This document shows, piece after piece, positions 68-26,130 of a DNA stretch of 64,000 nt (positions are counted from its first letter, which is position 1; the number at the start of each line of letters is the position of its first letter). Position numbers and translations under genes: made by a program. The DNA is taken from IMG/VR virus record IMGVR_UViG_3300023179_000077, positions 1-64,000 of that record. One strand, given 5' to 3'. The notes beneath the pieces are model-generated. The model saw only the letters and a program-made list of their open reading frames with translations, had not been told where the DNA came from and made no database searches. Source of the stretch: a virus.

Positions 68-550
68 ATGAATATATTTTATATCAATCAAGACCCAATC
101 ATCGCAGCACAACAATTAGCCGATGATCACATTCGCAAAATGCAAATCGAATCAGCTCAAATGTGTTGTACAACACATTGGGCAGTAGGTTCACAAGCAC
201 CATATAAACGTGCTCATTTTAATCACCCATCAACAATTTGGACTCGCCAATCAATTCAACACTATCGTTGGCTTGTACAGCATGGTCTTGAAATTTGTAG
301 TGAATTTACAAAACGTTATGGTAAACACCATAAAACACAAAATGTACTTGAATGGTGTCGTGACAATGAACCTAATATACCTGATAATGGATTTACTCCT
401 CCACCGCAATGTATGCCTGATGAGTATAAGAATAGTGATACTATTATTGCTTATAAGCAGTTTTATATTAAAGATAAAATAGCTATTAAAGGATTGAGTT
501 GGAAAAAATTGGGAAACACACCATCTTGGATATTTATTGATATATCATAA
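68..550 (+). CDS. Conserved phage protein of the 'MNIF-x-dP-AAQ' family
   Basis: This 160-residue protein starts MNIFYINQDP and then shows AAQQLADDHIRKMQIESAQM, an N-terminal pattern I recognise from a widespread family of uncharacterised tailed-phage proteins (small, with conserved H-x3-KM, AQ, NHP and W motifs). The later HFNHPSTIWTRQS stretch and the RYGKHHK motif (about residues 83-89) also fit that family. Members are sometimes loosely labelled as DNA-repair or glycosylase-like, but I see no catalytic signature that proves this. Its last 27 nucleotides, encoding SWIFIDIS and the stop, are copied in the gap before the gene at 974, so the locus has been used as a recombination or duplication boundary. 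Function unknown. Confidence 0.72.
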   Translation: MNIFYINQDPIIAAQQLADDHIRKMQIESAQMCCTTHWAVGSQAPYKRAHFNHPSTIWTRQSIQHYRWLVQHGLEICSEFTKRYGKHHKTQNVLEWCRDNEPNIPDNGFTPPPQCMPDEYKNSDTIIAYKQFYIKDKIAIKGLSWKKLGNTPSWIFIDIS

Positions 551-644
551 TAAAAAAAATGAAAAAACAAATCAACGAAATAAAAAGAATGCAGCTTATC
601 GCTGGATTAATCACTGAAAGTGAATATCAAGAATCATTAATGAA
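524..644 (+). repeat. 5' cassette repeat, copy 1
   Basis: Roughly 121 bases nearly identical to 938-1059. It covers the last codons of the gene at 68, the short gap and the first 28 or so codons of the gene at 559. Differences are confined to a few third-position changes and one extra A in the A-run before the start. Downstream of the repeat the two genes are unrelated. Confidence 0.9.
530..538 (+). promoter_or_regulatory. ATATTTAT-type element before the gene at 559
   Basis: ATATTTATT lies inside the last codons of the upstream gene, 20 bases before the start at 559. It matches the element recurring in gaps throughout the window and is duplicated at 944-952. Confidence 0.35.
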
Positions 645-909
645 AGAAGCAATTAAAGTTATACAAGATGGTGATCAAATAGAAATATCAGATGATAGTG
701 GTAATTATTCTGGATTTATAGAAGATGATGGTACTGTACGTTTTTCTGTAGTATATGAAGGTGAAGATTTTAATGACGAAAACTGGAGAGATATCTTAGG
801 ATCAAATCACGCTTTTGTTAAAATTATAGATAAAATTGGCGGTGATGTTGAAGCATTAGATGATTATGTTCAAATTACTGTTGATGCTAATAAATTAATT
901 AATATTTAA
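559..909 (+). CDS. Small acidic protein with candidate capsid-targeting N-terminus (cassette A)
   Basis: 116 residues. Residues 1-20 read MKKQINEIKRMQLIAGLITE, an amphipathic basic tag ending in L-I-T-E. The same L-I-T-E precedes alanine at the predicted gp21 cleavage point of the major capsid protein encoded at 20437. T4 internal head proteins carry short N-terminal capsid-targeting sequences removed by gp21 after (L/I)-x-E, so this looks like a packaged, possibly injected, internal protein. The tag is almost identical at DNA level to that of the gene at 974, while the acidic cargo after residue 28 (VIQDGDQIEISDDSG) is unrelated. Gene reality is well supported; the targeting role is inference. 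The cargo has no recognisable domain. Confidence 0.72.
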   Translation: MKKQINEIKRMQLIAGLITESEYQESLMKEAIKVIQDGDQIEISDDSGNYSGFIEDDGTVRFSVVYEGEDFNDENWRDILGSNHAFVKIIDKIGGDVEALDDYVQITVDANKLINI

Positions 910-910
910 T

Positions 911-938
911 ATAATAAAATATACAGAACAGATTCATT
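911..938 (+). repeat. 3' cassette repeat, copy 1
   Basis: 28 bases beginning ATAATAAAATATACAG and ending GATTCATT, identical to 1305-1332. It directly follows the stop of cassette A and abuts the 5' repeat of cassette B, giving the order 5'repeat-cargo-3'repeat twice in tandem. Confidence 0.9.
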
Positions 939-1059
939 CTTGGATATTTATTGATATATCATAACAAAAAAAAATGAAAAAGCAACTTAATGAAATTAAA
1001 AGAATGCAGCTTATCGCTGGATTAATCACTGAAAGTGAATATCAAGAATCATTAATGAA
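938..1059 (+). repeat. 5' cassette repeat, copy 2
   Basis: Near-identical partner of 524-644. Here the copied tail of the 68-550 gene is non-coding, which shows that this copy is the derived one. Confidence 0.9.
944..952 (+). promoter_or_regulatory. ATATTTAT-type element before the gene at 974
   Basis: ATATTTATT, 21 bases before the start at 974; part of the duplicated 5' cassette repeat. Confidence 0.35.
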
Positions 1060-1303
1060 TGAAGAAAATGAAGCAATGTCTGAAGAAGAAGTTCTTAATA
1101 TTTTAAATCAAAATGGAGTAGATGATGATTATTTTGAATCAATGGGAGGTAAAGAAATAGAATCAGGAACTGAAGAGTGGATGGGTATTTTAACTGATTT
1201 AACTGGAAAAGATGCTTTTGAAGCTGACTTTGATGATGCAGATAATCAAAAAATTATGAATTTTATAAAAAAGTTAAAAGAAATGGGAATTGAATTAGTA
1301 TAA
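974..1303 (+). CDS. Small acidic protein with candidate capsid-targeting N-terminus (cassette B)
   Basis: 109 residues with the same tag as the gene at 559 (MKKQLNEIKRMQLIAGLITE), then SEYQESLM, after which the cargo is completely different and very acidic (EENEAMSEEEVLNILNQNG). The start is fixed by the match to cassette A. A later segment, VDDDYFESMGGKEIE, has no family I recognise. The gene ends just before the second 28-base 3' repeat. By analogy with the T4 internal-protein locus, this is likely a head-packaged protein whose tag would be cut after E20. Being next to cassette A with shared flanks indicates duplication plus cargo replacement rather than simple divergence. Confidence 0.72.
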   Translation: MKKQLNEIKRMQLIAGLITESEYQESLMNEENEAMSEEEVLNILNQNGVDDDYFESMGGKEIESGTEEWMGILTDLTGKDAFEADFDDADNQKIMNFIKKLKEMGIELV

Positions 1304-1304
1304 A

Positions 1305-1332
1305 ATAATAAAATATACAGAACAGATTCATT
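1305..1332 (+). repeat. 3' cassette repeat, copy 2
   Basis: Identical to 911-938. After this copy the sequence departs into the hairpin-rich stretch that ends in the terminator at 1369-1408. Confidence 0.9.
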
Positions 1333-2540: not shown

Positions 2541-3185
2541 ATGACTAAAATTTATATGTTAGAAAAAAATGGAGTTCCATTTTATGTGGGTAAAGCTAAT
2601 GATGTGATTAGACGAAAACATAAGCATTATCAAACATATGGTTTAGATATTAAAGCAGAAATAATTGATGAAGTTGAGGATAAACAATGGAAATTTTGGG
2701 AACAATATTGGATATGTCAATTTAAAGCTTGGGGTTTTATTTTGTTAAATAAAAATAATGGAGGAGGAGGACCAACAGAATGGACATTAAAACAAAAACA
2801 AAATATTAATCCTGAACGAATAAAAAAAATTATGAATCATCCTACTAGAGGAAAACATATAAGTAAAACATTAAAACAAAGAAATCATTCAAAATATTAT
2901 ACTGAAAGTGTAAGACAAAAAATATCCGAGGCAAATAAAAATATTCCTAGACCATTTTCAAATGAACATAAATTAAATATGGGTATAGCTAAACGTAAAC
3001 AAGCTAAACCTGTACTTATGTTTGATTTAGAAGATAATTTTATAAAAGAATGGGAAAGTAAAGGACAAGCTGCTGAATGGATAAGAGAACAAACAGGTAA
3101 AACAAGTAATATAACATCACAAATTAAAGATTGTTGTTTAGGAAGACAAAAAACAGCTTTTAAATTTAAATGGAAATACAAATAA
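2541..3185 (+). CDS. GIY-YIG homing endonuclease with NUMOD repeats
   Basis: 214 residues. The catalytic start is a variant, IYMLEKNGVPFYVGKA (the YIG becomes YVG at residues 15-17), then 'RRKHKHY' and 'WEQYWI'. The middle and C-terminus carry NUMOD3-like segments (FSNEHKLNMGIAKRKQ) and a NUMOD1-like ending (GQAAEWIREQTGKTSNITSQI). This is the usual build of mobile phage endonucleases. It is not closely similar to the endonuclease at 1433, so the two probably arrived separately. It sits immediately upstream of the FAD dehydrogenase gene, which may be its insertion neighbour. Confidence 0.88.
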   Translation: MTKIYMLEKNGVPFYVGKANDVIRRKHKHYQTYGLDIKAEIIDEVEDKQWKFWEQYWICQFKAWGFILLNKNNGGGGPTEWTLKQKQNINPERIKKIMNHPTRGKHISKTLKQRNHSKYYTESVRQKISEANKNIPRPFSNEHKLNMGIAKRKQAKPVLMFDLEDNFIKEWESKGQAAEWIREQTGKTSNITSQIKDCCLGRQKTAFKFKWKYK

Positions 3186-9383: not shown

Positions 9384-9619
9384 AAAAGATTTTTGGATTA
9401 ATAGAAATGTATAAAAGTGATGCTTATCATTTTGATGACTTTGATGATACTATTATCGCTGAAACTTTAGATAAATTGAAAGAATCATTATCAAACTTAA
9501 AAGAAAATGATAACGCAAGTTACGCTCGCGTTATAAAAGAATATAAAAGTTCACTTGAAGGTGAACGTAAAGATGTTATAGAAGACTTTATTAAATACTC
9601 TAAATACTACAATAAATGA
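9380..9619 (+). CDS. Small acidic helical protein, unknown
   Basis: 79 residues, MKKIFGLIEMYKSDAYHFDDFDDT, mostly predicted helix with many Asp, Glu and Lys. It is coupled to both neighbours by ATGA overlaps (with 8916 and 9616), a strong sign that it is real. No family recognised. Confidence 0.62.
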   Translation: MKKIFGLIEMYKSDAYHFDDFDDTIIAETLDKLKESLSNLKENDNASYARVIKEYKSSLEGERKDVIEDFIKYSKYYNK

Positions 9620-10557
9620 AAAAATCAGAATTACAAGAACTCATACGTGAGGTTGTTGATGAAGTAATAAATGAACAAGCTACAATTGACGTTTCTAATC
9701 CTGGATCTTTAACTGGTCCTCAAAAACAAACTTTAATTCAACGAGCTCGCAATAATACTAAAAATCCTAAAATAGGAACTGCTGATGAACCAGTTGAATT
9801 TGTTGAAAAAAAACTAAAAGAAATGGCTCGTCAGCCTATTATCTATAAATTAACTGACGACTATGCTGATAAACTTTCTGAATTGTCTTATATTGGTTCA
9901 TCTAAACGAATGGCATGGGTTAATGGTATTATAGAGTATATAAAAGATAATGGTCCTTCCGATATTACTAAAATAGCTAGAGAAAAATTTAATGTTCCTC
10001 AACCACGCATATCTGACTATGCTCGTGATATGATTAGACTTGGTATTTTAGCACCAACAACAGCGGGTGTTGTTCCTCAATTTATGAAACCTAAACCAGA
10101 ACCTGGTGAAGAAGTAGAACCAGAAGAAGAAACAGGTATTGTTTCTGGTGATTTAAGTGATGAAGAAATTGAAGCTTCATTTGCTAAAGCTAAAGCAGCG
10201 GGTGAAGAAGAACCTACTGGAATAGAAAAAACATCAGCTCCCACATCAGCTTCAGAATTATCAGATGAAGATTACAGTGATTTTATGAAATACACTGATT
10301 TAATGGATCGTTTAAATAGTGTAAAAGGTGATCTAAATAGAATGAAACGTAGTAGATTTATGGCAGGCGGTGGTGATATTAAAGATAAACCATCTGATGA
10401 AGAAAAACGTTTAAGAGATTTAAAAGCTAGTTTGGAACAACGCGTAAATACCTTAGTAGCTGGATCTGAGTATCTACAAAAACGTCAAGCTAAAAAAGAC
10501 GAATTAAACGAGTGGAATAAAAAGAAAATGCAGTATTACGCTGGTATTATAAAATAA
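9616..10557 (+). CDS. Tagged DNA-binding-like protein (candidate packaged protein)
   Basis: 313 residues. The N-terminus MKKSELQELIREVVDEVINE is a short amphipathic tag ending in I-N-E at residue 20, fitting the gp21 cleavage rule (L/I)-x-E. A similar tag starts the prohead-region gene at 17538. After a linker, residues about 85-140 (YIGSSKRMAWVNGIIEYIKDNG, then 'ITKIAREKFNVPQPRISDYARDMIRLGILAPTTAG') look like a winged-helix DNA-binding domain. The rest is acidic low-complexity (EEVEPEEETG) and a basic coiled C-terminus. It may be a DNA-binding protein targeted into the head and ejected with the genome. Gene certain, role inferred. Confidence 0.68.
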   Translation: MKKSELQELIREVVDEVINEQATIDVSNPGSLTGPQKQTLIQRARNNTKNPKIGTADEPVEFVEKKLKEMARQPIIYKLTDDYADKLSELSYIGSSKRMAWVNGIIEYIKDNGPSDITKIAREKFNVPQPRISDYARDMIRLGILAPTTAGVVPQFMKPKPEPGEEVEPEEETGIVSGDLSDEEIEASFAKAKAAGEEEPTGIEKTSAPTSASELSDEDYSDFMKYTDLMDRLNSVKGDLNRMKRSRFMAGGGDIKDKPSDEEKRLRDLKASLEQRVNTLVAGSEYLQKRQAKKDELNEWNKKKMQYYAGIIK

Positions 10558-12900: not shown

Positions 12901-13578
12901 ATGAAAATTTGTATTAAATGTAACCAAGAAAAAGAATTAAATAATTTTTATAAAAATAATAGAAATAAATCAGGATATGAAGGTATTTGTAAATCTTGTA
13001 AAAATGAATATACTATTTTAAATAATAAAAAATTAGGAAATAAATACTTTCAATTAACTTCTAAAAAATGGTCAAATAAAAATAAAAATAAAATATCACA
13101 ATATAATAAAGAAAAATATAATAATAATAAAGAATACTGGTTAAGTGAAAATAGAAAATTATATAGTAAAGAATGGAGAAGTAATAATAAAGATAAATTA
13201 GCAAAATATTGGAAAATTAAATATGATACTGATATTAATTTTAAACTATCTTGTTTGTTAAGACTTAGGTTATATAATGCTTTAAAACTAAATTTAAAAA
13301 CTAAAAGTGCTATAAAATTAATAGGTTGTACAATAGATACTTTTAAACAATATCTTGAATCTAAATTTAAACCAGAAATGAATTGGAATAATCATGGTGA
13401 TATTTGGGAAATTGATCATATTAAGCCATGTGATTCCTTTAATCTAACAGATATAGAACAACAAAAACAATGCTTTCATTATACTAATATGCAGCCATTA
13501 TTTAAAACAACAAAAATTGCTGAGTCGTTTGGATATAATGAATTAGGCAATAGAAATAAGACTAATAAATATTTATAG
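12901..13578 (+). CDS. HNH homing endonuclease with zinc finger
   Basis: 225 residues. An N-terminal treble-clef-like zinc finger (CIKCNQEKELNNFYK, then CKSCK) is followed by a lysine/asparagine-rich helical linker and a C-terminal HNH site: 'MNWNNHGDIWEIDHIKP' with the catalytic DH pair, then 'FHYTNMQPLF' with the Asn. The segment 'IKLIGCTIDTFKQYLESKF' is typical of this phage HNH group. The same architecture is found at 22170. It lies between terminase and portal, a common site for free-standing phage homing endonucleases. Extreme A/T-rich codon use contrasts with its neighbours. Confidence 0.92.
   Translation: MKICIKCNQEKELNNFYKNNRNKSGYEGICKSCKNEYTILNNKKLGNKYFQLTSKKWSNKNKNKISQYNKEKYNNNKEYWLSENRKLYSKEWRSNNKDKLAKYWKIKYDTDINFKLSCLLRLRLYNALKLNLKTKSAIKLIGCTIDTFKQYLESKFKPEMNWNNHGDIWEIDHIKPCDSFNLTDIEQQKQCFHYTNMQPLFKTTKIAESFGYNELGNRNKTNKYL
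13566..13578 (+). promoter_or_regulatory. TAAATATTTATAG element before the portal gene
   Basis: Overlaps the last codons and stop of the HNH gene and lies 18 bases before the portal start. Confidence 0.4.
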
Positions 13579-16379: not shown

Positions 16380-16924
16380 TGGATCAATTAAGAGAAAAAT
16401 TAAAGCAATTAATACGTAAAGAACTAGAGGAGATGTCTGCTACTAGTGGTGGAGAAGCATATTCTACTCCTTTTGCTTTTGCTAAAAAAGGTCAAAAAAC
16501 AAACGCTGCTATTCAAACAGCTAAATCTCAAGGAATGAAATTAGCTCCTACAGGAATACCTAGTGACTCTAAAGTAAGAGATTATAAAGCAATTTGGAAA
16601 TCAGCTGAAAAATCTAAATATAAGATGTATAAAGAATCTTTAGAAAAAATTGTTAAAGAAGAGTTACTCAACGAAGTAACCTATTCTAAATTCAAAAACG
16701 AAGTTAAATTTAGAACTAAATCAGAACAACTTCATAAAGCAATTCGTGAAGTAAAACGTAAACTACAAGAAATTGATCGTATTGTTGAATATACTTCACG
16801 CATGAAACAAGAATTAAGTGAAGACGGCGGTATCAACTATTGGAAAGCCACTCAAAAGAATATAGGTACTATATCTGAAATGGTAAACCAATTAAATAAT
16901 AAGATTAAAAATTTACATCAATGA
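16379..16924 (+). CDS. Prohead-core candidate with helical N-terminal tag
   Basis: 181 residues. The start MDQLREKLKQLIRKELEEMSAT resembles the helical tags of the genes at 9616 and 17538, and L-E-E at 16-18 could be a gp21 site. A second possible site is 'EELLNE' near residue 100, before 'VTYSKFKNEV'. The C-terminal half is a long basic coiled coil (LHKAIREVKRKLQEIDRIVEYTSRMKQEL). It is coupled by overlap to both neighbours (TAATG upstream, ATGA downstream) and probably belongs to the internal core that is digested during maturation. Confidence 0.7.
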   Translation: MDQLREKLKQLIRKELEEMSATSGGEAYSTPFAFAKKGQKTNAAIQTAKSQGMKLAPTGIPSDSKVRDYKAIWKSAEKSKYKMYKESLEKIVKEELLNEVTYSKFKNEVKFRTKSEQLHKAIREVKRKLQEIDRIVEYTSRMKQELSEDGGINYWKATQKNIGTISEMVNQLNNKIKNLHQ

Positions 16925-17355
16925 AAAAGCAAATTAACGAAATCCGCAGAATGCAGCAATTAGCTGGGATTTTAAAAGAAAATAATATAAACGAAGCTCC
17001 TCAGCCTGATTGGGGTTCTATGGGACTTACATATAGTGATACAATAGGAGATGATAATGAAGGTGAATATAATGAGATTGTGGATATAACAAAAAAATTA
17101 TATCAAGACTTCATAGAACAATATGAGAAAATGCCAGATCAAGAAAAAATTGAATATAAAATATCACAAGATATAGATAACGATATTACGAATATGTTAG
17201 ATGCAATATATAGCTTTTCTTTTAGAAAGGATAATAATGTTAAACTTAGTGATGGAAGAACAGTTAGTATTAACTATCTTATGAACAAAATGCTTGAAAA
17301 GGGAGAATACAGTAAACTAGCTCAAGATATCTTGGAAATAATTATAGGCTTATAA
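16921..17355 (+). CDS. Tagged acidic prohead-region protein
   Basis: 144 residues. The N-terminus MKKQINEIRRMQQLAGILKE is the same tag type as in the genes at 559 and 974, here in the head operon itself, which supports a capsid-targeting role for the tag. Possible gp21 sites are L-K-E at 18-20 and I-N-E at 23-25, the latter before 'APQPDW'. The cargo is acidic and helical (EIVDITKKLYQDFIEQYEKMP) and unlike the other two cargos. It starts inside the end of the upstream gene (ATGA). Confidence 0.75.
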   Translation: MKKQINEIRRMQQLAGILKENNINEAPQPDWGSMGLTYSDTIGDDNEGEYNEIVDITKKLYQDFIEQYEKMPDQEKIEYKISQDIDNDITNMLDAIYSFSFRKDNNVKLSDGRTVSINYLMNKMLEKGEYSKLAQDILEIIIGL

Positions 17356-17537: not shown

Positions 17538-17930
17538 ATGAAAAAAAGCGAATTACGTGAATTAATAAAAGAAATAATACTTCAAGAAATAACTAAAGTA
17601 GAGGAAAGTCAAGAAGAAAGAGGAATTACACCTAGTGGTCAAATTCAAACTCCCGCACAAGCTCTTGGCCGTGCTCGCCCTAGAACTTCCGCTGAGTTAG
17701 CTTGGGAAAATTATGGTTTGGACAGATATACTGCTGGAGTAGCATATAACGGAGGATATACTAAAAAAGATGGAACATTTGTTCCAGTAGATGAACAAGG
17801 ATTAGTTAATATAGTAATATCCATGTTAAAGAAAAAATTACCAAATGCTGATTCTGAAATTGTAGATTGGATGAAAAATAAAACTAGAGAGGTGTATAAA
17901 AGACAACAATCGTTTAAAAAAGGTAGTTAA
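17538..17930 (+). CDS. Tagged prohead-region protein
   Basis: 130 residues. The tag MKKSELRELIKEIILQEITK is nearly the same as in the gene at 9616 (MKKSELQELIREVVDEV), and L-Q-E at 15-17 is a possible cleavage site. The rest is small and polar: 'GRARPRTSAELAWENYGLDRYTAGVAYNGGYTKKDGTFVPVDEQGL', then a basic helix to the end. I do not recognise the cargo. Position between core genes and protease supports a head-internal protein. Confidence 0.7.
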   Translation: MKKSELRELIKEIILQEITKVEESQEERGITPSGQIQTPAQALGRARPRTSAELAWENYGLDRYTAGVAYNGGYTKKDGTFVPVDEQGLVNIVISMLKKKLPNADSEIVDWMKNKTREVYKRQQSFKKGS

Positions 17931-17940
17931 AAATAATATA

Positions 17941-18570
17941 ATGAAAAGCATACAAAACCAATATCGCGATCTTAAAGAAGGAAAAATGTCACAAGCTAAC
18001 TTTATGCGTAATGTGCGTATGACTTTTCCTCATTTAGTTACTAATGTAACATCATTTGATGATACTGTCAGAATACTTAAAAATAAACAAATATTAAGCG
18101 AAGCTAAAACTAAACTACACCCAAATCAAATTCACCCACAAGAATTAAGAATGGGTATTAAAGTAGAAATGGAACACACAGATGATCCTAAAAAAGCAGA
18201 AAAAATTGCTTTAGATCATTTAGCAGAAAATCCATTTTACTACACAGCATTAAAATTATCAGGCATTGAATCACCTTCAGCTCCTAAAACTAAAACACCT
18301 GCTAAAGCTAAAGCTAAAAAAGAATCAGTTGAATTAGTTGATAAAGAAAATCAAATGAAAACACCAAAAGGTGTTGAAAAAGCAAAAGCATCAGCTAATA
18401 AAGCACATAAAGAAACAAACAAAGGTGTTAAAGGAGTAGAAGAACTCACTCACGCTGCTAAAAAAGCTAAAGGCATTAAACAAGTAATGTCTCCTACTGG
18501 TGGTAAAATGAAAACCATTAGAGAACAATTAGAAAAACTTGTGCGTGAAGCCATAAATGAATATTACTAA
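17941..18570 (+). CDS. DUF5661-like prohead protein with C-terminal tag
   Basis: 209 residues. Residues about 68-100 (ELRMGIKVEMEHTDDPKKAEKIALDHL, then 'ENPFYYTALKLSG') match the DUF5661 pattern of 'G-kvE-EHt-d-a-kIAlDHL-e-p-YYt-L'. A lysine/alanine-rich linker follows. The last 16 residues (REQLEKLVREAINEYY) resemble the amphipathic tags of neighbouring genes, but at the C-terminus. The stop overlaps the protease start (TAATGA). It may be a core protein like T4 gp68, held in the scaffold by the C-terminal helix. Confidence 0.75.
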   Translation: MKSIQNQYRDLKEGKMSQANFMRNVRMTFPHLVTNVTSFDDTVRILKNKQILSEAKTKLHPNQIHPQELRMGIKVEMEHTDDPKKAEKIALDHLAENPFYYTALKLSGIESPSAPKTKTPAKAKAKKESVELVDKENQMKTPKGVEKAKASANKAHKETNKGVKGVEELTHAAKKAKGIKQVMSPTGGKMKTIREQLEKLVREAINEYY

Positions 18571-19175
18571 TGAAATCATTACTCATAGACCATACTCCTT
18601 TCCAACATGCTAAGCTTACTTTAGTTGAAGGTAAAGTAAACAATGGTACTGTCACTTTAGTTGGTAAATTACAAGAAGCTGAACAAAAAAACGGCAATGG
18701 TCGTGTATATCCTCGCGAAATACTTGAAAGAGAAGTAAAAAAATATGCTGAAGGACCAATAAAAACACGCACTGCTTTAGGAGAACTCGATCATCCTGAA
18801 GCCTCTGTTGTTAATCTAGCAAATACTTCCCATGTTATTACAGAAGTATGGTGGAAAGGAAATGACTTAATGGGTAGATTACAACTATTACCCACACCCG
18901 CGGGCAATATCGCTAAAGCACTTGTATTATCTGGTATTCCACTTGGTATTTCATCACGCGGTATGGGTAGTGTTAAACAACTTGGTGAAACAGTTGAAGT
19001 ACAAGACGATTTTGAATTGTTATGTTGGGATTTAGTATCAGTACCTAGTACTCCACAAGCATATATGAGAATAGCTGAAGCAAAGCAATATGCTTCTATT
19101 AAAGATTATAGCAAAGTAAATAGTTTAATTACAGAAATTATTTGTCAACATACTGGAGTTTGTCCTTTATGTTAA
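18570..19175 (+). CDS. 21: Prohead core protease (gp21-like)
   Basis: 201 residues (T4 gp21 is 212). The serine-protease fold of T4-type prohead proteases is seen in 'GRVYPREILEREVKKY', the catalytic His in GELDHPE (H75) and the catalytic Ser in 'IPLGISSRGMGS' (S128 or S129), followed by 'DFELLCWDLVSVPSTPQA'. It digests the scaffold, trims gp23 and removes targeting tags after (L/I)-x-E. Its probable substrates in this window are gp22, gp23 and the tagged small proteins. The start overlaps the upstream stop. Confidence 0.97.
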   Translation: MKSLLIDHTPFQHAKLTLVEGKVNNGTVTLVGKLQEAEQKNGNGRVYPREILEREVKKYAEGPIKTRTALGELDHPEASVVNLANTSHVITEVWWKGNDLMGRLQLLPTPAGNIAKALVLSGIPLGISSRGMGSVKQLGETVEVQDDFELLCWDLVSVPSTPQAYMRIAEAKQYASIKDYSKVNSLITEIICQHTGVCPLC

Positions 19176-19323: not shown

Positions 19324-20406
19324 ATGACAAACCAAGATTTGTTCAAAGAAGCAATTGCTGACGCTAAAGCTATTCGTGAAACTGCTTTAGCTAATGCAAA
19401 AGTTGCTCTTGAAGAAGCTCTTGCTCCTAGACTTCAATCTATGCTTGCTGCTAAATTGCAAGAAATGGATAATATGGACGAGGCTGAAGAAGAGAAACTT
19501 GAAGAAAAATCACTCGGTCAAGACACTTATCGTACAGGCGATGTACAACATGTTGGTGCTAGAGAAAGACATGCTGCACTCGAAGAAAACGAAGAAGAAC
19601 TTGAAGAAGATTTTGATTTATCTGAAATTTTAGCTGAACTCGAAGAAGCTAAAGAAGAAGAAGAAAAAGAAAAAATGAAAGAAGCTAAAAAAGAAGAAGA
19701 GGAAGATGAAGAAGAAGGTGAAGAGCCTGCTGAATCTGAACCTGCTGAATCTGAAACAGTGGCTGATCTTTCAGTTGATGAATTAAAAATGATTATCAAA
19801 GACATTATTTCTAGCGAAATGGAAGACGGCGGCATGGAAGACATGGGCGGCGACGAAACAGAAGCTGGAGACGAAATGACGGTTGATGTATCATCTGATG
19901 AAGGTGAAGGAATGGAAGAAGATCTTAATTTAGAAGAATTATTAGCTGAACTTGACGCTTTAGACGAAGACTATTCTGAAGAAGAAACAGAATACGAAGA
20001 AGGTGGAATGTACGAAGCTAAGAAAAAAGCTAAAAAAGAAGATGATAAAATGAAAAAAGAGTTAGATGAAGCTATTGCTACTATCCATACTCTTCGTTCA
20101 GAACTTAACGAAGTTAATCTTCTTAACGCTAAATTACTCTATGTAAATAAGATTTTCAAAGCCAAGAACTTAACTGAATCACAAAAACTTAAAGTAATCG
20201 CTCAATTTGACAAAGCATCTACTGTTAAAGAAGCTAAGATGATTTATGAAACTATGGACGTTGCTATTGCAAAATCTGCTAAGTCTTCAATTAAAGAATC
20301 TATGGGTTTTGCTTCCAAAGCAGCAGGTGTTGCTAAAAAACCAATCGTCGAAGTGGACGAAACAATGTCAAGATGGCAAATGCTTGCTGGCATTAAAAAA
20401 CACTAA
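19324..20406 (+). CDS. 22: Prohead scaffold protein (gp22-like)
   Basis: 360 residues starting MTNQDLFKEAIADAKAIRE. It is extremely acidic with long glutamate runs (about residues 40-210) and alternating helices, the composition of T4-type scaffolds. Its position between protease and capsid gene is diagnostic. Many (L/I)-x-E tripeptides would allow gp21 to shred it during maturation. The C-terminus reads MSRWQMLAGIKKH, which resembles the 'RMQ-LAG' part of the N-terminal tags at 559, 974 and 16921. The AAGGAG site sets the start; the upstream ATG-free extension from 19228 is discarded. Confidence 0.95.
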   Translation: MTNQDLFKEAIADAKAIRETALANAKVALEEALAPRLQSMLAAKLQEMDNMDEAEEEKLEEKSLGQDTYRTGDVQHVGARERHAALEENEEELEEDFDLSEILAELEEAKEEEEKEKMKEAKKEEEEDEEEGEEPAESEPAESETVADLSVDELKMIIKDIISSEMEDGGMEDMGGDETEAGDEMTVDVSSDEGEGMEEDLNLEELLAELDALDEDYSEEETEYEEGGMYEAKKKAKKEDDKMKKELDEAIATIHTLRSELNEVNLLNAKLLYVNKIFKAKNLTESQKLKVIAQFDKASTVKEAKMIYETMDVAIAKSAKSSIKESMGFASKAAGVAKKPIVEVDETMSRWQMLAGIKKH

Positions 20407-20436: not shown

Positions 20437-22083
20437 ATGAACGTACAACAATTACTCGAGTCATCTAACCAGTATAAAGTTATAATGGAAGATGCACAAC
20501 GTTTGTCTGGTAAGTGGGCTAAATCCGGTCTTTTAGAAGGCATTAGCAACACTCAAGACAAAAACACAATGGCTATTCTCCTTGAGAACCAAGCCAAGCA
20601 ATTAATCACTGAAGCTTCTGCTACAGGTGGTACTACCTCAATGTCTGGTGCTGGATATAATGCAGAAAACTGGGCTGGTGTAGCTTTGCCATTAGTTCGC
20701 CGCGTATTCGGTGAAATCGCTGCTAAAGAATTCGTTAGCGTACAACCAATGAACTTACCTTCAGGTCTCGTATTCTATCTTGATTTCAAATACGGTACTG
20801 GTGTTAAGCCATTTACCAGCGGTGGTTCACTTTATGGTGCTAACGCTACTACAAACGTAACCGATATTGCTTCTCAATCACTTTATGGTGCTGGTAAGTT
20901 TGGTTACTCAATCAACCAATTCTCAGCTTCTATTGTTGCTGTAACCGGTTCAACCACATGGGCTGACTTTAACTTAGATTCTACCTATTCAGCTTCTGCT
21001 GCTACTGGTTGGAAAAAGATTTCAGTTCCTCTCCCAGCTGCTGCTGATACAAATGCTGTTAGATCATTTGTATTTACTTCTGGTTCTTCCGGAACATTCA
21101 TCAGCGCTAATGACATTTTACAGCAATTTACAACTGTAGCTAATAGCACAGCTTCATTCATTGTAACTGGTTCATTAGTATCTGTTTCTAGCTCAACTCC
21201 AACAGTAACCTTGTTCTTCTCTGTAGCTCCTACTCCAGCAGCTCGTGGTGATTTCGAAGATCAAACAACAGGTGGCGGTGCTGGTAACGGCGGTAATGGT
21301 GGTTATCCTGGTGCTAACACTACTTCTGCTGCAATTGCTATCCCAGAAATCAACGTTCAGTTGAAATCAGAAGCTATTGTTGCTAAAACTCGTAGGTTAA
21401 AAGCACAATGGACACCAGAATTCGCTCAGGATCTTAATGCTTATCATAGTGTTGATGCTGAAGCTGAATTAACTGGTATCTTATCACAGTATATTTCAAT
21501 GGAAATCGACCTCGAAATCCTTGATATGTTAATTCAAAACGCTTTCACTACTGAATACTGGTCAGCAGTTAACAACCAAGGCGTAGGTGCTTCTGGTGTT
21601 ACTAATGGTAACCTCGGTTACTACAACACCCAAGGTGGTTGGTTCCAAACCCTCGGCACTAAGCTCCAGAAAGTTTCTAACATAATCCATCAGTTAACTC
21701 TCCGCGGTGGCGCTAACTTCCTCGTAACTTCACCAACCGTAGCTACAATCCTCGAATCAATTCCTGGATTTGCTTCTGACGGTGATGGTGAAAAAATGGA
21801 ATTCAACTTCGGTATTCAGAAAGTTGGTTCACTTAACAGCCGTTACAAGGTTTACAAGAACCCATACATGACTGAGAACGTAATCCTCATGGGTTACAAA
21901 GGTGCTCAGTTCCTTGAGTGCGGTGCTGTATTTGCTCCATATGTGCCTTTAATCATGACTCCACTTCTCTACGATCCTAACACCTTCACTCCACGTAAAG
22001 GTTTGATGACTCGTTACGCTAAGAAGATGATTAGACCGGACTATTATGGTCGTGTATATGTTGCTGGTTTAAATACTCTTTAA
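20437..22083 (+). CDS. 23: Major capsid protein (gp23-like)
   Basis: 548 residues (T4 gp23 is 521). The N-terminal propeptide ends 'AKQLITE' and the mature chain should start at A60 ('ASATGG'), the same place as T4's cleavage after residue 65. After it come 'AGYNAENWAGVALPLVRRVFGEI' and 'EFVSVQPMNLPSGLVFYLDFKYG', hallmarks of the HK97-fold T4 capsid family. The end is 'FTPRKGLMTRYAKKMIRPDYYGRVYV'. Codon use is richer in C-ending codons than neighbouring genes, consistent with very high expression. It follows the scaffold gene by 30 bases with no promoter-like element, so is probably co-transcribed. Confidence 0.98.
   Translation: MNVQQLLESSNQYKVIMEDAQRLSGKWAKSGLLEGISNTQDKNTMAILLENQAKQLITEASATGGTTSMSGAGYNAENWAGVALPLVRRVFGEIAAKEFVSVQPMNLPSGLVFYLDFKYGTGVKPFTSGGSLYGANATTNVTDIASQSLYGAGKFGYSINQFSASIVAVTGSTTWADFNLDSTYSASAATGWKKISVPLPAAADTNAVRSFVFTSGSSGTFISANDILQQFTTVANSTASFIVTGSLVSVSSSTPTVTLFFSVAPTPAARGDFEDQTTGGGAGNGGNGGYPGANTTSAAIAIPEINVQLKSEAIVAKTRRLKAQWTPEFAQDLNAYHSVDAEAELTGILSQYISMEIDLEILDMLIQNAFTTEYWSAVNNQGVGASGVTNGNLGYYNTQGGWFQTLGTKLQKVSNIIHQLTLRGGANFLVTSPTVATILESIPGFASDGDGEKMEFNFGIQKVGSLNSRYKVYKNPYMTENVILMGYKGAQFLECGAVFAPYVPLIMTPLLYDPNTFTPRKGLMTRYAKKMIRPDYYGRVYVAGLNTL
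20611..20616 (+). other. Predicted gp21 cleavage site in the capsid precursor
   Basis: Codons for E59-A60 in 'QLITE-ASATG'. The L-I-T-E matches residues 17-20 of the tags at 559 and 974. Confidence 0.75.
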
Positions 22084-22122: not shown

Positions 22123-22153
22123 AAAAGGCTCGAGGTAATACTCGGGCCTTTTT
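22123..22153 (+). terminator. Intrinsic terminator after the capsid gene
   Basis: AAAAGGCTCGAG (22123-22134) pairs with CTCGGGCCTTTTT (22141-22153), with one T-G pair, loop GTAATA. It is preceded by a 'CCTGTAAGGCTTAAAAAA' motif also found (as CCCGTAAGGCT) before the terminator at 23211. Confidence 0.92.
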
Positions 22154-22154
22154 G

Positions 22155-22164
22155 TATATTTATA
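22155..22164 (+). promoter_or_regulatory. TATATTTATA element before an HNH gene
   Basis: Directly follows the capsid-gene terminator, 5 bases before ATG 22170. Confidence 0.45.
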
Positions 22165-22169
22165 CACGT

Positions 22170-22718
22170 ATGAAAACATGTAAAAAATGTGGTATTGAAA
22201 AACCACTAAATGAATATTGTAAACGTAAAGAAGAAAAAGATGGATTACATCGTTATTGTAAACCATGTATGAGACAACGTCTTAAAAATGAGTACAATAG
22301 GGATAAAGAAAAACATCTTAAACGTACTCGAAAATATCAAGAGGAAAATAGGGAATATTTTAGAAATAAATCTAATAATCACTACCACACCAAAAAAGAC
22401 TACTATCGCGAATGGAATCGAACTAAATATTCTACTGATTTACTATTTCGTCTCCGCCATACTCTCAATTCTATCATAAACCATCACCTTAAAGAAGGTA
22501 AATCACAAAGCAGCATTGACTATCTAGGCTGCACAATACAAGAATACAAAGAGTATCTTGAACCACTATTCACACCAGAAATGAATTGGGAAAATTATGG
22601 AACTTATTGGGAAATAGACCACATTCATCCATTAGCTAAAGGTGGATCATTTCATTATACCAACACTCAGCCACTTACTGTAGTTGAAAATAGAATAAAA
22701 TCAGACATAATATTATGA
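22170..22718 (+). CDS. HNH homing endonuclease with zinc finger
   Basis: 182 residues from ATG 22170; a TTG 18 bases upstream would overlap the promoter-like element and is rejected. The N-terminal zinc finger (CKKCGIEKPLNEY, then YCKPCMR) and the C-terminal site 'MNWENYGTYWEIDHIHPLAKGGSFHYTNTQPL' match the endonuclease at 12901 in architecture, so both belong to one mobile family, here beside the capsid gene. It overlaps the next start by ATGA. It cleaves DNA at a target presumed to be near the capsid gene. Confidence 0.92.
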   Translation: MKTCKKCGIEKPLNEYCKRKEEKDGLHRYCKPCMRQRLKNEYNRDKEKHLKRTRKYQEENREYFRNKSNNHYHTKKDYYREWNRTKYSTDLLFRLRHTLNSIINHHLKEGKSQSSIDYLGCTIQEYKEYLEPLFTPEMNWENYGTYWEIDHIHPLAKGGSFHYTNTQPLTVVENRIKSDIIL

Positions 22719-23965: not shown

Positions 23966-25537
23966 ATGGCTATAAATCTTAAAGACTTATATGATAAATA
24001 CTATGGGGATACTTCATACTTAACACCAGTTAAATGTAATACTCCATTTGAATATTATGATAACGATCCTGAATTTGTAAGAGATGCTAAAAGTGTTGCA
24101 CGATTTGTAGCTCAACGCTTAGGTACTGGTTTAGGTCTTACTCAACTCAACATTAGTGATTTAACCGTGTATGCTGCTTTTGAAGAAGCAGTTACTACAT
24201 ACGGTAATATGGTCTATCAATATAAAATTAGAGACCAATACTTAAGTATGGAAGGAGCAGAATCGTCTCCTTTTAATAACGCTACTGTTACTTATGTAAA
24301 TAGTATAGATGTAAGTTCACCTGTTACTTGGTCTGGTGCTAGATTAGCTACTTTAACTGATATAGATAATAATCCAACTTACACTCAAGCAGTAAATGAT
24401 GGAAGCATATATGTTATATCTGCTTCATTATCTAATTTTATATTACCTAATTTAGATTATGTTAAATCATTCACTTTAGCTACAGAATATGTAAGTGGAT
24501 CTATTACTTATGATTTAAGTCAATACGTTTATAATAAATTAAATAAAGTAAGTGGTAGTTATCTTTATTTCTTTACTACTAGTCCTCAAATATCAAGTGG
24601 ATCTGCTTTATTTGGAACCGGATCTATACCTACAGTTTATATTCAAGATGTATTAGATCCTGAATTTAATAATAAATTAATTAGTGATACTTTAGCTACT
24701 TTAACTACTACTATAGCTGAAAACTATGCTAGTGAAGCAGGTATAGGTGGAAACTATACAGTATATAGTGGTACTCTTCCAATGACAGCGGGCGTTCAAG
24801 ATTATGATTTAAATACTTGGGCTGCTAACTCAGCATCATTAAATCCAGGTGACAGAATAGAAATTAGAAGAGTATTCTATGAAGAACCCCCTGCTATTGT
24901 TCGTTACTTTGATCCATATGCCGGTACAGGTACTGGTATCCAATCATTACTTGAAACATTTGGATTTGGTCAGTTTTCTCCGGGTATTAACTTCTTATTA
25001 ATGCCTATCTACTTTGATATACAAAAAATACAAGCGATTGAATTTAACGATCAAATAAGAAAAGCAGCTTATTCATTTAATTTAGTAAATAATAAATTAA
25101 AAATATTTCCTATACCTACTGAAAATAAAAATTTATTTTTTGAGTATGTAAAAGTAAGTGAAAAGTTCAATCCTATCAAAGACAACAGAAATAATGTTGT
25201 TACTGATGTAATGAATGTTCCTTATAGAAATCCAATATATTCTAGAATAAACACTGTAGGTAGAACTTGGATATTTAAATATGCCTTAGCATTATGCCGT
25301 GAAATTGAAGCACATATTCGCTTAGAATATTCTACAGTTAACGTTCAAGGTGTAGGAGCATTACAAGGATCCGATTTAATTCAAGATGCTAGAACAGAAA
25401 AAGAACAATTGTTGACTGAATTAAAAGAAATGTTAAATGAAGTATCGCGTAAAGCACAATTAGAGCGTCAACAACAAGAAGCCCAATTTGCTCGTGATAC
25501 TTTAACTCAAATACCATTACCAATTTATATATTCTAA
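23966..25537 (+). CDS. Virion structural protein, neck/connector candidate (gp13-like position)
   Basis: 523 residues. The start 'AINLKDLYDKYYGDTSYLTPVKCNTPFEYYDND' and the C-terminal 'GRTWIFKYALALCREIEAHIRLEYSTVNVQGVGALQGSDLIQDARTEKEQLLTELKEML' follow a pattern of head-tail connector proteins in T4-like phages ('W-kyalA-akeilg-iRsky... l-gd-L-s-a-aek-L-eel'). The middle is rich in Ser, Thr and Gly and looks beta-structured. It overlaps the next gene by TAATG. The gp13 assignment rests on these patterns and gene order, so it is moderate. Confidence 0.6.
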   Translation: MAINLKDLYDKYYGDTSYLTPVKCNTPFEYYDNDPEFVRDAKSVARFVAQRLGTGLGLTQLNISDLTVYAAFEEAVTTYGNMVYQYKIRDQYLSMEGAESSPFNNATVTYVNSIDVSSPVTWSGARLATLTDIDNNPTYTQAVNDGSIYVISASLSNFILPNLDYVKSFTLATEYVSGSITYDLSQYVYNKLNKVSGSYLYFFTTSPQISSGSALFGTGSIPTVYIQDVLDPEFNNKLISDTLATLTTTIAENYASEAGIGGNYTVYSGTLPMTAGVQDYDLNTWAANSASLNPGDRIEIRRVFYEEPPAIVRYFDPYAGTGTGIQSLLETFGFGQFSPGINFLLMPIYFDIQKIQAIEFNDQIRKAAYSFNLVNNKLKIFPIPTENKNLFFEYVKVSEKFNPIKDNRNNVVTDVMNVPYRNPIYSRINTVGRTWIFKYALALCREIEAHIRLEYSTVNVQGVGALQGSDLIQDARTEKEQLLTELKEMLNEVSRKAQLERQQQEAQFARDTLTQIPLPIYIF

Positions 25538-26130
25538 TGCCCAGAGGAATAGTAAAATATGTACCTGTAGATAATTGTCCTGATCCAAATTATCCCGCTG
25601 CAGCGCCTTCAGCACCTGTAACAAAAGCAGGTACACCTACTGCTCCTGAATTACCTCCAACTGGTGCTGATTTTATAAATACATTTATAGATCAAGCAGC
25701 TAAATCATCTATTCGTTTTAGTAATATGACTGTAGGTTATTTTAAATTAGATTTAACCAATACTAAATCAAATATGTATGGTGAATCAATAGAAAAATGG
25801 TATTATCCACCAGTGGAAGTAAGATGTTTAATTGAAAGAGGTGATTTTGCTTATACCGATACTGAATATGGACCTGATATTAATCAAACATTAACATTAA
25901 CAATACCAAAAATAACTTTAGTTGAGCTTGACTTTTTACCTGAAGTAGGAGATATAGTTACTGATCAAGAAAGATATTATGAAGTACATGATTCAAACAG
26001 ATCATTCATAACTATACCAGGTACAGGTAGATCTGAATCAACTGTTGGCACTCCGGGTCAAATAGTAGTATATAAAGTAACAGCTCACTTAACAAGAACA
26101 ACAAAACTTAACCTAATACAGTATAGCTAA
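25537..26130 (+). CDS. 14: Neck protein candidate (gp14-like)
   Basis: 197 residues. The stretch 'LTNTKSNMYGESIEKWYYPPVEVRCLIERGDF' and the later 'EVGDIVTDQERYYEVHDSNRSFI' resemble the T4-type neck protein gp14 ('n-YGEskek-y-ppv-v-clid', then 'gd-I--ngeyYEi'). An N-terminal proline/alanine-rich linker (about residues 20-45) is not part of the domain. It would help join head and tail. Overlaps both neighbours by TAATG, so translation is coupled. Confidence 0.62.
   Translation: MPRGIVKYVPVDNCPDPNYPAAAPSAPVTKAGTPTAPELPPTGADFINTFIDQAAKSSIRFSNMTVGYFKLDLTNTKSNMYGESIEKWYYPPVEVRCLIERGDFAYTDTEYGPDINQTLTLTIPKITLVELDFLPEVGDIVTDQERYYEVHDSNRSFITIPGTGRSESTVGTPGQIVVYKVTAHLTRTTKLNLIQYS

Follow-up and report, generated by a model that had tools for sequence, protein, structure and literature searches.

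Exchangeable small proteins of a T4-like phage share an N-terminal tag that resembles the scaffold C-terminus and may address them to the head

The closest described parallel to the genes considered here is found in phage T4. Several unrelated small T4 proteins (the internal proteins IPI-III and Alt) carry a short N-terminal propeptide, the capsid-targeting sequence, that ends in L/I-x-E, the rule of the T4 prohead protease; the genome encodes this S77-family protease, and the cargo varies between phages (review PMC9026906). In herpesviruses, the scaffold C-terminus binds the capsid protein, and the maturation protease removes the last 25 residues (PMC12474303). The phage S77 and herpes proteases have been described as related (PMC9026906).

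The DNA analysed here (the window) comprises positions 1-64,000 of a 77,053-base IMG/VR virus record from an uncultured phage. It encodes a T4-like head module with a portal-like gene, an S77 protease, a scaffold and a Gp23-family capsid protein (Table 1), as well as genes headed by a common N-terminal tag. What is new is that the address within the tag resembles the tail of the phage's own scaffold. To our knowledge, it is not clear which residues of the T4 core are recognised by the capsid-targeting sequence. Because the tag matches the scaffold tail, the address is here readable from the genome, making the recognition question directly testable.

Table 1. Features of the window discussed in the text; a slash marks a predicted or candidate cut.
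Feature	Position	Strand	Remarks
Conserved neighbour gene	68..550	+	marginal Pyr_excise (endonuclease V) match; homologues adjoin tagged genes in 9 loci
Duplicated cassette unit 1	524..937	+	5' flank, tag, cargo A, 3' flank
Tagged gene A	559..909	+	116 aa; tag 559-645 and acidic cargo A; predicted S77 cut after E20 (base 618), LITE/S
Duplicated cassette unit 2	938..1332	+	5' flank, tag, cargo B, 3' flank; flanks as in unit 1, cargo different
Tagged gene B	974..1303	+	109 aa; tag 974-1060 and acidic helical cargo B; predicted cut after E20 (base 1033), LITE/S
Second C-terminal address carrier	9616..10557	+	C-terminus LNE/WNKKKMQYYAGIIK; N-terminal helix ends VINE/Q
Portal-like gene	13597		head module
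Third tagged gene, within head operon	16921..17355	+	tag 16921-16995; predicted cut ILKE/N
S77 prohead protease (T4 gp21 family)	18570..19175	+	PF03420, E 6e-33
Scaffold protein	19324..20406	+	T4 gp22 position; acidic
Scaffold C-terminal tail VDETMSRWQMLAGIKKH	20353..20403	+	candidate cut IVE/ directly before; tag-like
Gp23-family major capsid protein	20437..22083	+	head module
Predicted capsid-protein propeptide	20437-20613	+	ends QLITE/A

A common tag before exchanged cargos

The core observation of the initial annotation, two open reading frames (559-909 and 974-1303) with a common N-terminus, is real, with its boundaries corrected. The sharing had been put at 20 N-terminal residues followed by full divergence. 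The cargos are indeed dissimilar (best blastp E = 12 for the proteins), but the sharing is longer, with 27 of the first 29 residues identical, compared to 12/29 for the next best N-terminal pair among the 79 ORFs of the window (pairs with the third tag excluded). The common protein block therefore ends approximately nine residues beyond LITE (to SEYQESLMxE). At the DNA level, 524-658 and 938-1073 are 92% identical, a block that begins within the preceding gene and takes in 27 nt of its 3' end. The regions 907-938 and 1301-1332, located after the stop codons, are 97% identical. Significant similarity is absent between the cargo A and cargo B DNA that lies between these flanks. Duplicated 5' and 3' blocks with dissimilar cargo between them mark this as a tandem duplication with a replaced middle.

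Beyond residue 20, all three tagged proteins of the window are acidic (cargo pI 4.05–4.20); their tags have a basic pI of ~10. Structure models of cargo A (pLDDT 83.6) and cargo B (pLDDT 92.5) returned nothing below E 0.001 when compared to the PDB, and VIA-align gave a Z of at most 3.4 for the cargo A model, which is within noise. A match of a cargo model to the MotA C-terminal domain (E 0.027, TM 0.39) was considered weak and dropped.

The presence of a homologue of gene 68-550 beside tagged genes in nine loci marks a preferred site. In T4, the internal-protein genes adjoin denV; this parallel was left unused for gene 68-550, the proteins being dissimilar by blastp (E 0.2). Judged by eye, the genes at 1433-1978, 2541-3185, 12901-13578 and 22152-22718 of the window are likely to encode homing endonucleases of the GIY-YIG or HNH type; they adjoin the tagged genes, separate terminase from portal, or follow the capsid gene.

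The gene at 16921 had been assigned the same tag type and an acidic cargo, which is borne out by 58% identity over 26 aa (E 2e-6) and by a cargo pI in the range given above. In the relative G004, 94% DNA identity to this gene's region breaks at 16995, the end of the tag, and returns at ~17365, just beyond the gene; the G004 cargo at this position is a diverged relative fused with extra sequence. The same pattern is seen at the tandem locus, where flanks and tags are ~86–96% identical between G004 and the window at the DNA level while the cargo is different. The G004 gene preceding the locus is 94% identical to that of the window. A second block, of ~86% identity, runs from the unit 1 3' flank to within the GIY-YIG gene that comes next. 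In the stretch separating the two, where the window has cargos A and B, G004 has cargo C, a D+B fusion and cargo E. G004 also contains an additional tagged gene (L004 9616), flanked by an oxidoreductase gene on one side and by the counterpart of window gene 4529 on the other. Cargo B was found in six phages, with every copy within a tagged protein, at times behind another cargo. In line with what the initial annotation proposed to look for in relatives, G004 keeps tag and flanks but differs in cargo, and the tag is constant across the ~69 cargo clusters described below.

Viral contigs were scanned with a protein query (20 loci) and with a tag profile (162 loci, 80 of which were kept). The tag was found at the N-terminus of 113 distinct ORFs from related IMG/VR contigs, and the other profile matches consisted of two tags with a missing or non-ATG start, one short truncated tagged ORF and, for the rest, true C-termini. 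An alignment of 116 tagged proteins shows conservation confined to the tag. The cargos form ~69 clusters among 112 (blastp E 1e-3), with a median length of 129 aa and a median pI of 4.6 (83% below 5.5), and a single record can hold up to ~7 tagged genes. Searching the 116 tagged proteins against Pfam, PHROGs and PADLOC gave scattered weak matches only, leaving nearly all cargos without a known family. No confirmed tag was obtained from 257 Gb of bacterial and archaeal genomes using the tag profile. Of 30 tag-bearing records, 20 contain both S77 and Gp23, among them six of the seven that are at least 100 kb long. The ten records without S77 and Gp23 (nine below 60 kb, one of 102 kb) are possibly fragments. 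The nearest cultured relative found, and the one cultured tag-bearing phage, is Flavobacterium phage vB_FspM_immuto, whose capsid protein is 58% identical to that of the window. Published virion proteomics or N-terminal data were not found for tagged proteins, those of immuto included, and a literature search for the motif strings found no paper.

Several individual loci display unusual arrangements. L011 4533-5285 contains a second tag in frame, as if two tagged genes had fused. L001 4236-5918 (also L002 and L003) encodes a 560-aa tagged protein with several cargo-like domains in series and [LI]-x-E motifs between them, which looks like a polyprotein for cutting inside the head; a homologue of cargo A sits within it. 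One phage has two neighbouring Gp23-family capsid genes (G025 98130-101274), and the Gp23 matches G023 113418-114815 and G030 24733-26130 contain two in-frame TAA codons each, perhaps reflecting an intron, an insertion or a match overrunning the stop.

Cut motif and likeness to the scaffold tail

The initial annotation had placed a T4-like protease motif at the end of the tag. Consistent with this, 113 of 118 tags have [LIV]-x-E at the same position, as opposed to 1.35% of downstream positions, and the motif matches the site in the capsid protein. T, N, K and S all occur as the middle residue of the tag motif, a variation in keeping with protease specificity. The capsid-protein site KQ[LI][IV][TSV]E (e.g. 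KQLITE/A) was present in 18/18 head clusters examined, and SLITE or a near variant is held in the C-terminus of the S77 protease in most of these, the window enzyme having SLITE/I inside its own C-terminus. T4 gp23 has FLTE/A at the position of QLITE/A in the window capsid protein. Most tags also possess a second motif, I-N-E, near the start, and the exact position of the tag cut is uncertain because of this earlier motif.

The non-N-terminal matches of the tag model include the extreme C-termini of scaffold proteins, e.g. ...PIVESDAAIRRMQQLAGIIK. In all 18 head clusters, the scaffold ends with an [IV]-x-E type motif shortly before an address R[MWF]xxLA[GN]. When a model of scaffold tails only was run against 5861 ORFs (E<1), it retrieved 84 N-terminal tags, 27 scaffold tails and 3 others; the loci had been picked by their tags, so the tag count is enriched, but this selection does not explain the near-absence of other matches. 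Comparison of tags with scaffold tails by hhalign gave a probability of 97.2% and E 3.7e-11 across 18 aligned columns of a short, helix-prone sequence, with KKQINE----IKRMQxLAGII paired with KKPIVEVDETMSRWQMLAGIK and the cut motif aligned too. In a shuffle control, most single tails pass and the weakest four fail, the window scaffold tail scoring 9.8 bits, barely above the 9.5 bits of the best of 9000 shuffles. Given this mixed control, the tag/tail claim rests on the profile comparison. The resemblance of the tag to the extreme C-terminus of the scaffold was missed in the initial annotation and provides strong, independent support for head targeting.

Within genomes, covariation of tag and scaffold tail is not evident by eye. 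The window has SRWQML in the scaffold and KRMQLI in the tag, and LANI scaffolds were found alongside LAGI/LAGL tags. The scaffold tail was found in Microcystis phage Mel-JY01, LR756508 and Rhodothermus phage RM378, where tagged proteins are absent, while T4 and S-RIM2 gave no match. The scaffold copy looks ancestral because the tail occurs in these three without tagged proteins; in the simplest order of events, the scaffold tail came first and the tags later.

An address of this type also terminates the product of the gene at 9616, whose family is not homologous to the scaffold and emerged in the shuffle control as high-scoring non-scaffold C-termini. Nearly all homologues end in [LIV]-x-E and then an address, for example KMQYYAGIIK or RMQYYAGIKK. 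Across all ORFs (228,064 residues), the address motif is C-terminal in 43 ORFs versus 3 internal matches. The N-terminal helix of the window protein (MKKSELQELIREVVDEVINE/Q) is of a different kind from the tag and ends in a cut motif. Its middle region has a winged-helix DNA-binding look by eye, with no match in Pfam, and the product might be a DNA-binding protein that enters the head along with the genome. This second type of N-terminal helix, MKKSEL..LI.E....[IV].E, was found as a strict pattern in 12 proteins and internally in none (162,547 residues). It also heads L066 from 4989 and L121 from 929, with window 17538-17930 similar by eye, and is possibly a further address.

Proposed head loading and its alternatives

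Tag, cut motif, scaffold likeness, cargo exchange and S77/Gp23 co-occurrence support, at the level of sequence, a model to which we assign a probability of about three in four: the common N-terminus is a portable, cleavable head address, a copy or mimic of the scaffold tail, that is cut by S77 to leave the cargo free in the head. The tagged protein would behave like scaffold, joining either the core of the prohead or the inside surface of its shell. S77 would then cut after the [LIV]-x-E just behind the tag address, as predicted in the capsid protein and before the scaffold tail, releasing the acidic cargo within the maturing head. We infer both packaging and cleavage of the tagged proteins. 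That the freed cargo is then ejected into the host is slightly more likely than not. Exchange of cargo genes may proceed by recombination at the tag and the common 3' flank.

In terms of docking, the scaffold tail would attach the scaffold to the shell or core, tags would attach cargo likewise, and the protease would free both. This proposal is made by analogy with the herpesvirus scaffold and with T4 gp22. The latter has FVTE/A 24 residues before its C-terminus, corresponding to a peptide of 2525 Da, and a 2.5 kDa gp22 fragment is listed for the mature T4 head (PMC9026906); the two are presumably the same. A broader proposal, for which we would offer even odds, is that of a general head-loading code. 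A single address, ancestral at the scaffold C-terminus and placed beside a cut motif, would have been copied to the N-termini of dozens of exchangeable cargos and to the C-terminus of at least one further family, such that any protein bearing it could be docked as a pseudo-scaffold, freed and delivered with the genome.

The acidity of the cargos (median pI 4.6) is reminiscent of the scaffold and of T4 gp67, whereas T4 internal proteins are basic, and some tagged proteins (L001-L003) are long products of the head operon with several [LI]-x-E motifs. It is therefore conceivable that tagged proteins are auxiliary core or scaffold factors similar to T4 gp67/gp68, entering the prohead by means of the tag, acting in assembly or head-size control and subsequently being destroyed or left behind, with no delivery. 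We consider this rather unlikely, as the ~69 clusters among 112 cargos, the tandem arrays outside the head operon and the differing cargo of close relatives are a better fit to accessory genes. The motif common to scaffold and tags could instead bind, in both kinds of protein, a partner outside the head: a chaperone of host or phage origin, for instance, or a degradation factor. Short amphipathic terminal motifs can recruit chaperones, but the fixed S77-type cut motif adjoining the address in tags, scaffold and the 9616 family is then unexplained, making such a role improbable. Finally, ordinary duplicated genes with decaying or fast-evolving C-terminal parts, and a tag devoid of any targeting role, are scarcely credible: although units 1 and 2 are a clear tandem duplication that includes 27 nt of the upstream gene, identity ends abruptly at the tag boundary yet resumes in a 97% identical 3' flank, the cargos have their own homologues elsewhere with open frames and folds kept, and the tag is conserved in phages with unrelated cargo.

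Implications and described counterparts

Under the proposed head-address model, the tag can be used as bait to retrieve small, uncharacterised phage proteins in ~69 clusters, which are probably virion components. The tagged cargos form a natural search ground for host-takeover and counter-defence proteins, and the tag itself may find use in loading proteins for delivery by Bacteroidota phages.

In encapsulins, one short cargo-loading peptide brings unrelated proteins into an HK97-fold shell; unlike the proposed address, this peptide remains uncleaved, and the shell contains no DNA and takes no part in infection. The giant phages phiKZ and SPN3US are alike in that head-protein propeptides are cut off by the prohead protease and ejection proteins reach the host, but we know of no short common tag copied from the scaffold tail on these ejection proteins. 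Nor do we know of a herpesvirus cargo protein bearing a copy of the scaffold tail. The herpesvirus scaffold itself does provide a parallel, as its last residues form a separate binding tail that is removed by the maturation protease at the M site (PMC12474303). The corresponding arrangement, a distinct C-terminal motif with a protease motif directly before it, was found in 18/18 head clusters. That the tail binds the capsid protein has been demonstrated in herpesviruses and is assumed here.

The initial annotation had likened the locus to the T4 internal-protein delivery system. This likeness holds at the functional level (propeptide, cut motif, swapped cargo, S77), but does not extend to the tag, which has no detectable T4 homologue, or to the cargo, which is acidic here and basic in T4. 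The tag profile gave no match in T4, where IPII and IPIII start with MKTYQEFIAE and IPI with MKTFKEFTSTTTPVSTITE, both unlike the tag. Membership of the T4 internal-protein family was rejected on the basis of tag sequence and cargo charge. Further differences from T4 are the match between tag and scaffold C-terminus, the larger number of cargo clusters and the presence of up to ~7 tagged genes per record. To judge from these comparisons of sequence, the system works like T4 capsid targeting but differs in the range of its cargo and in having an address in common with the scaffold tail.
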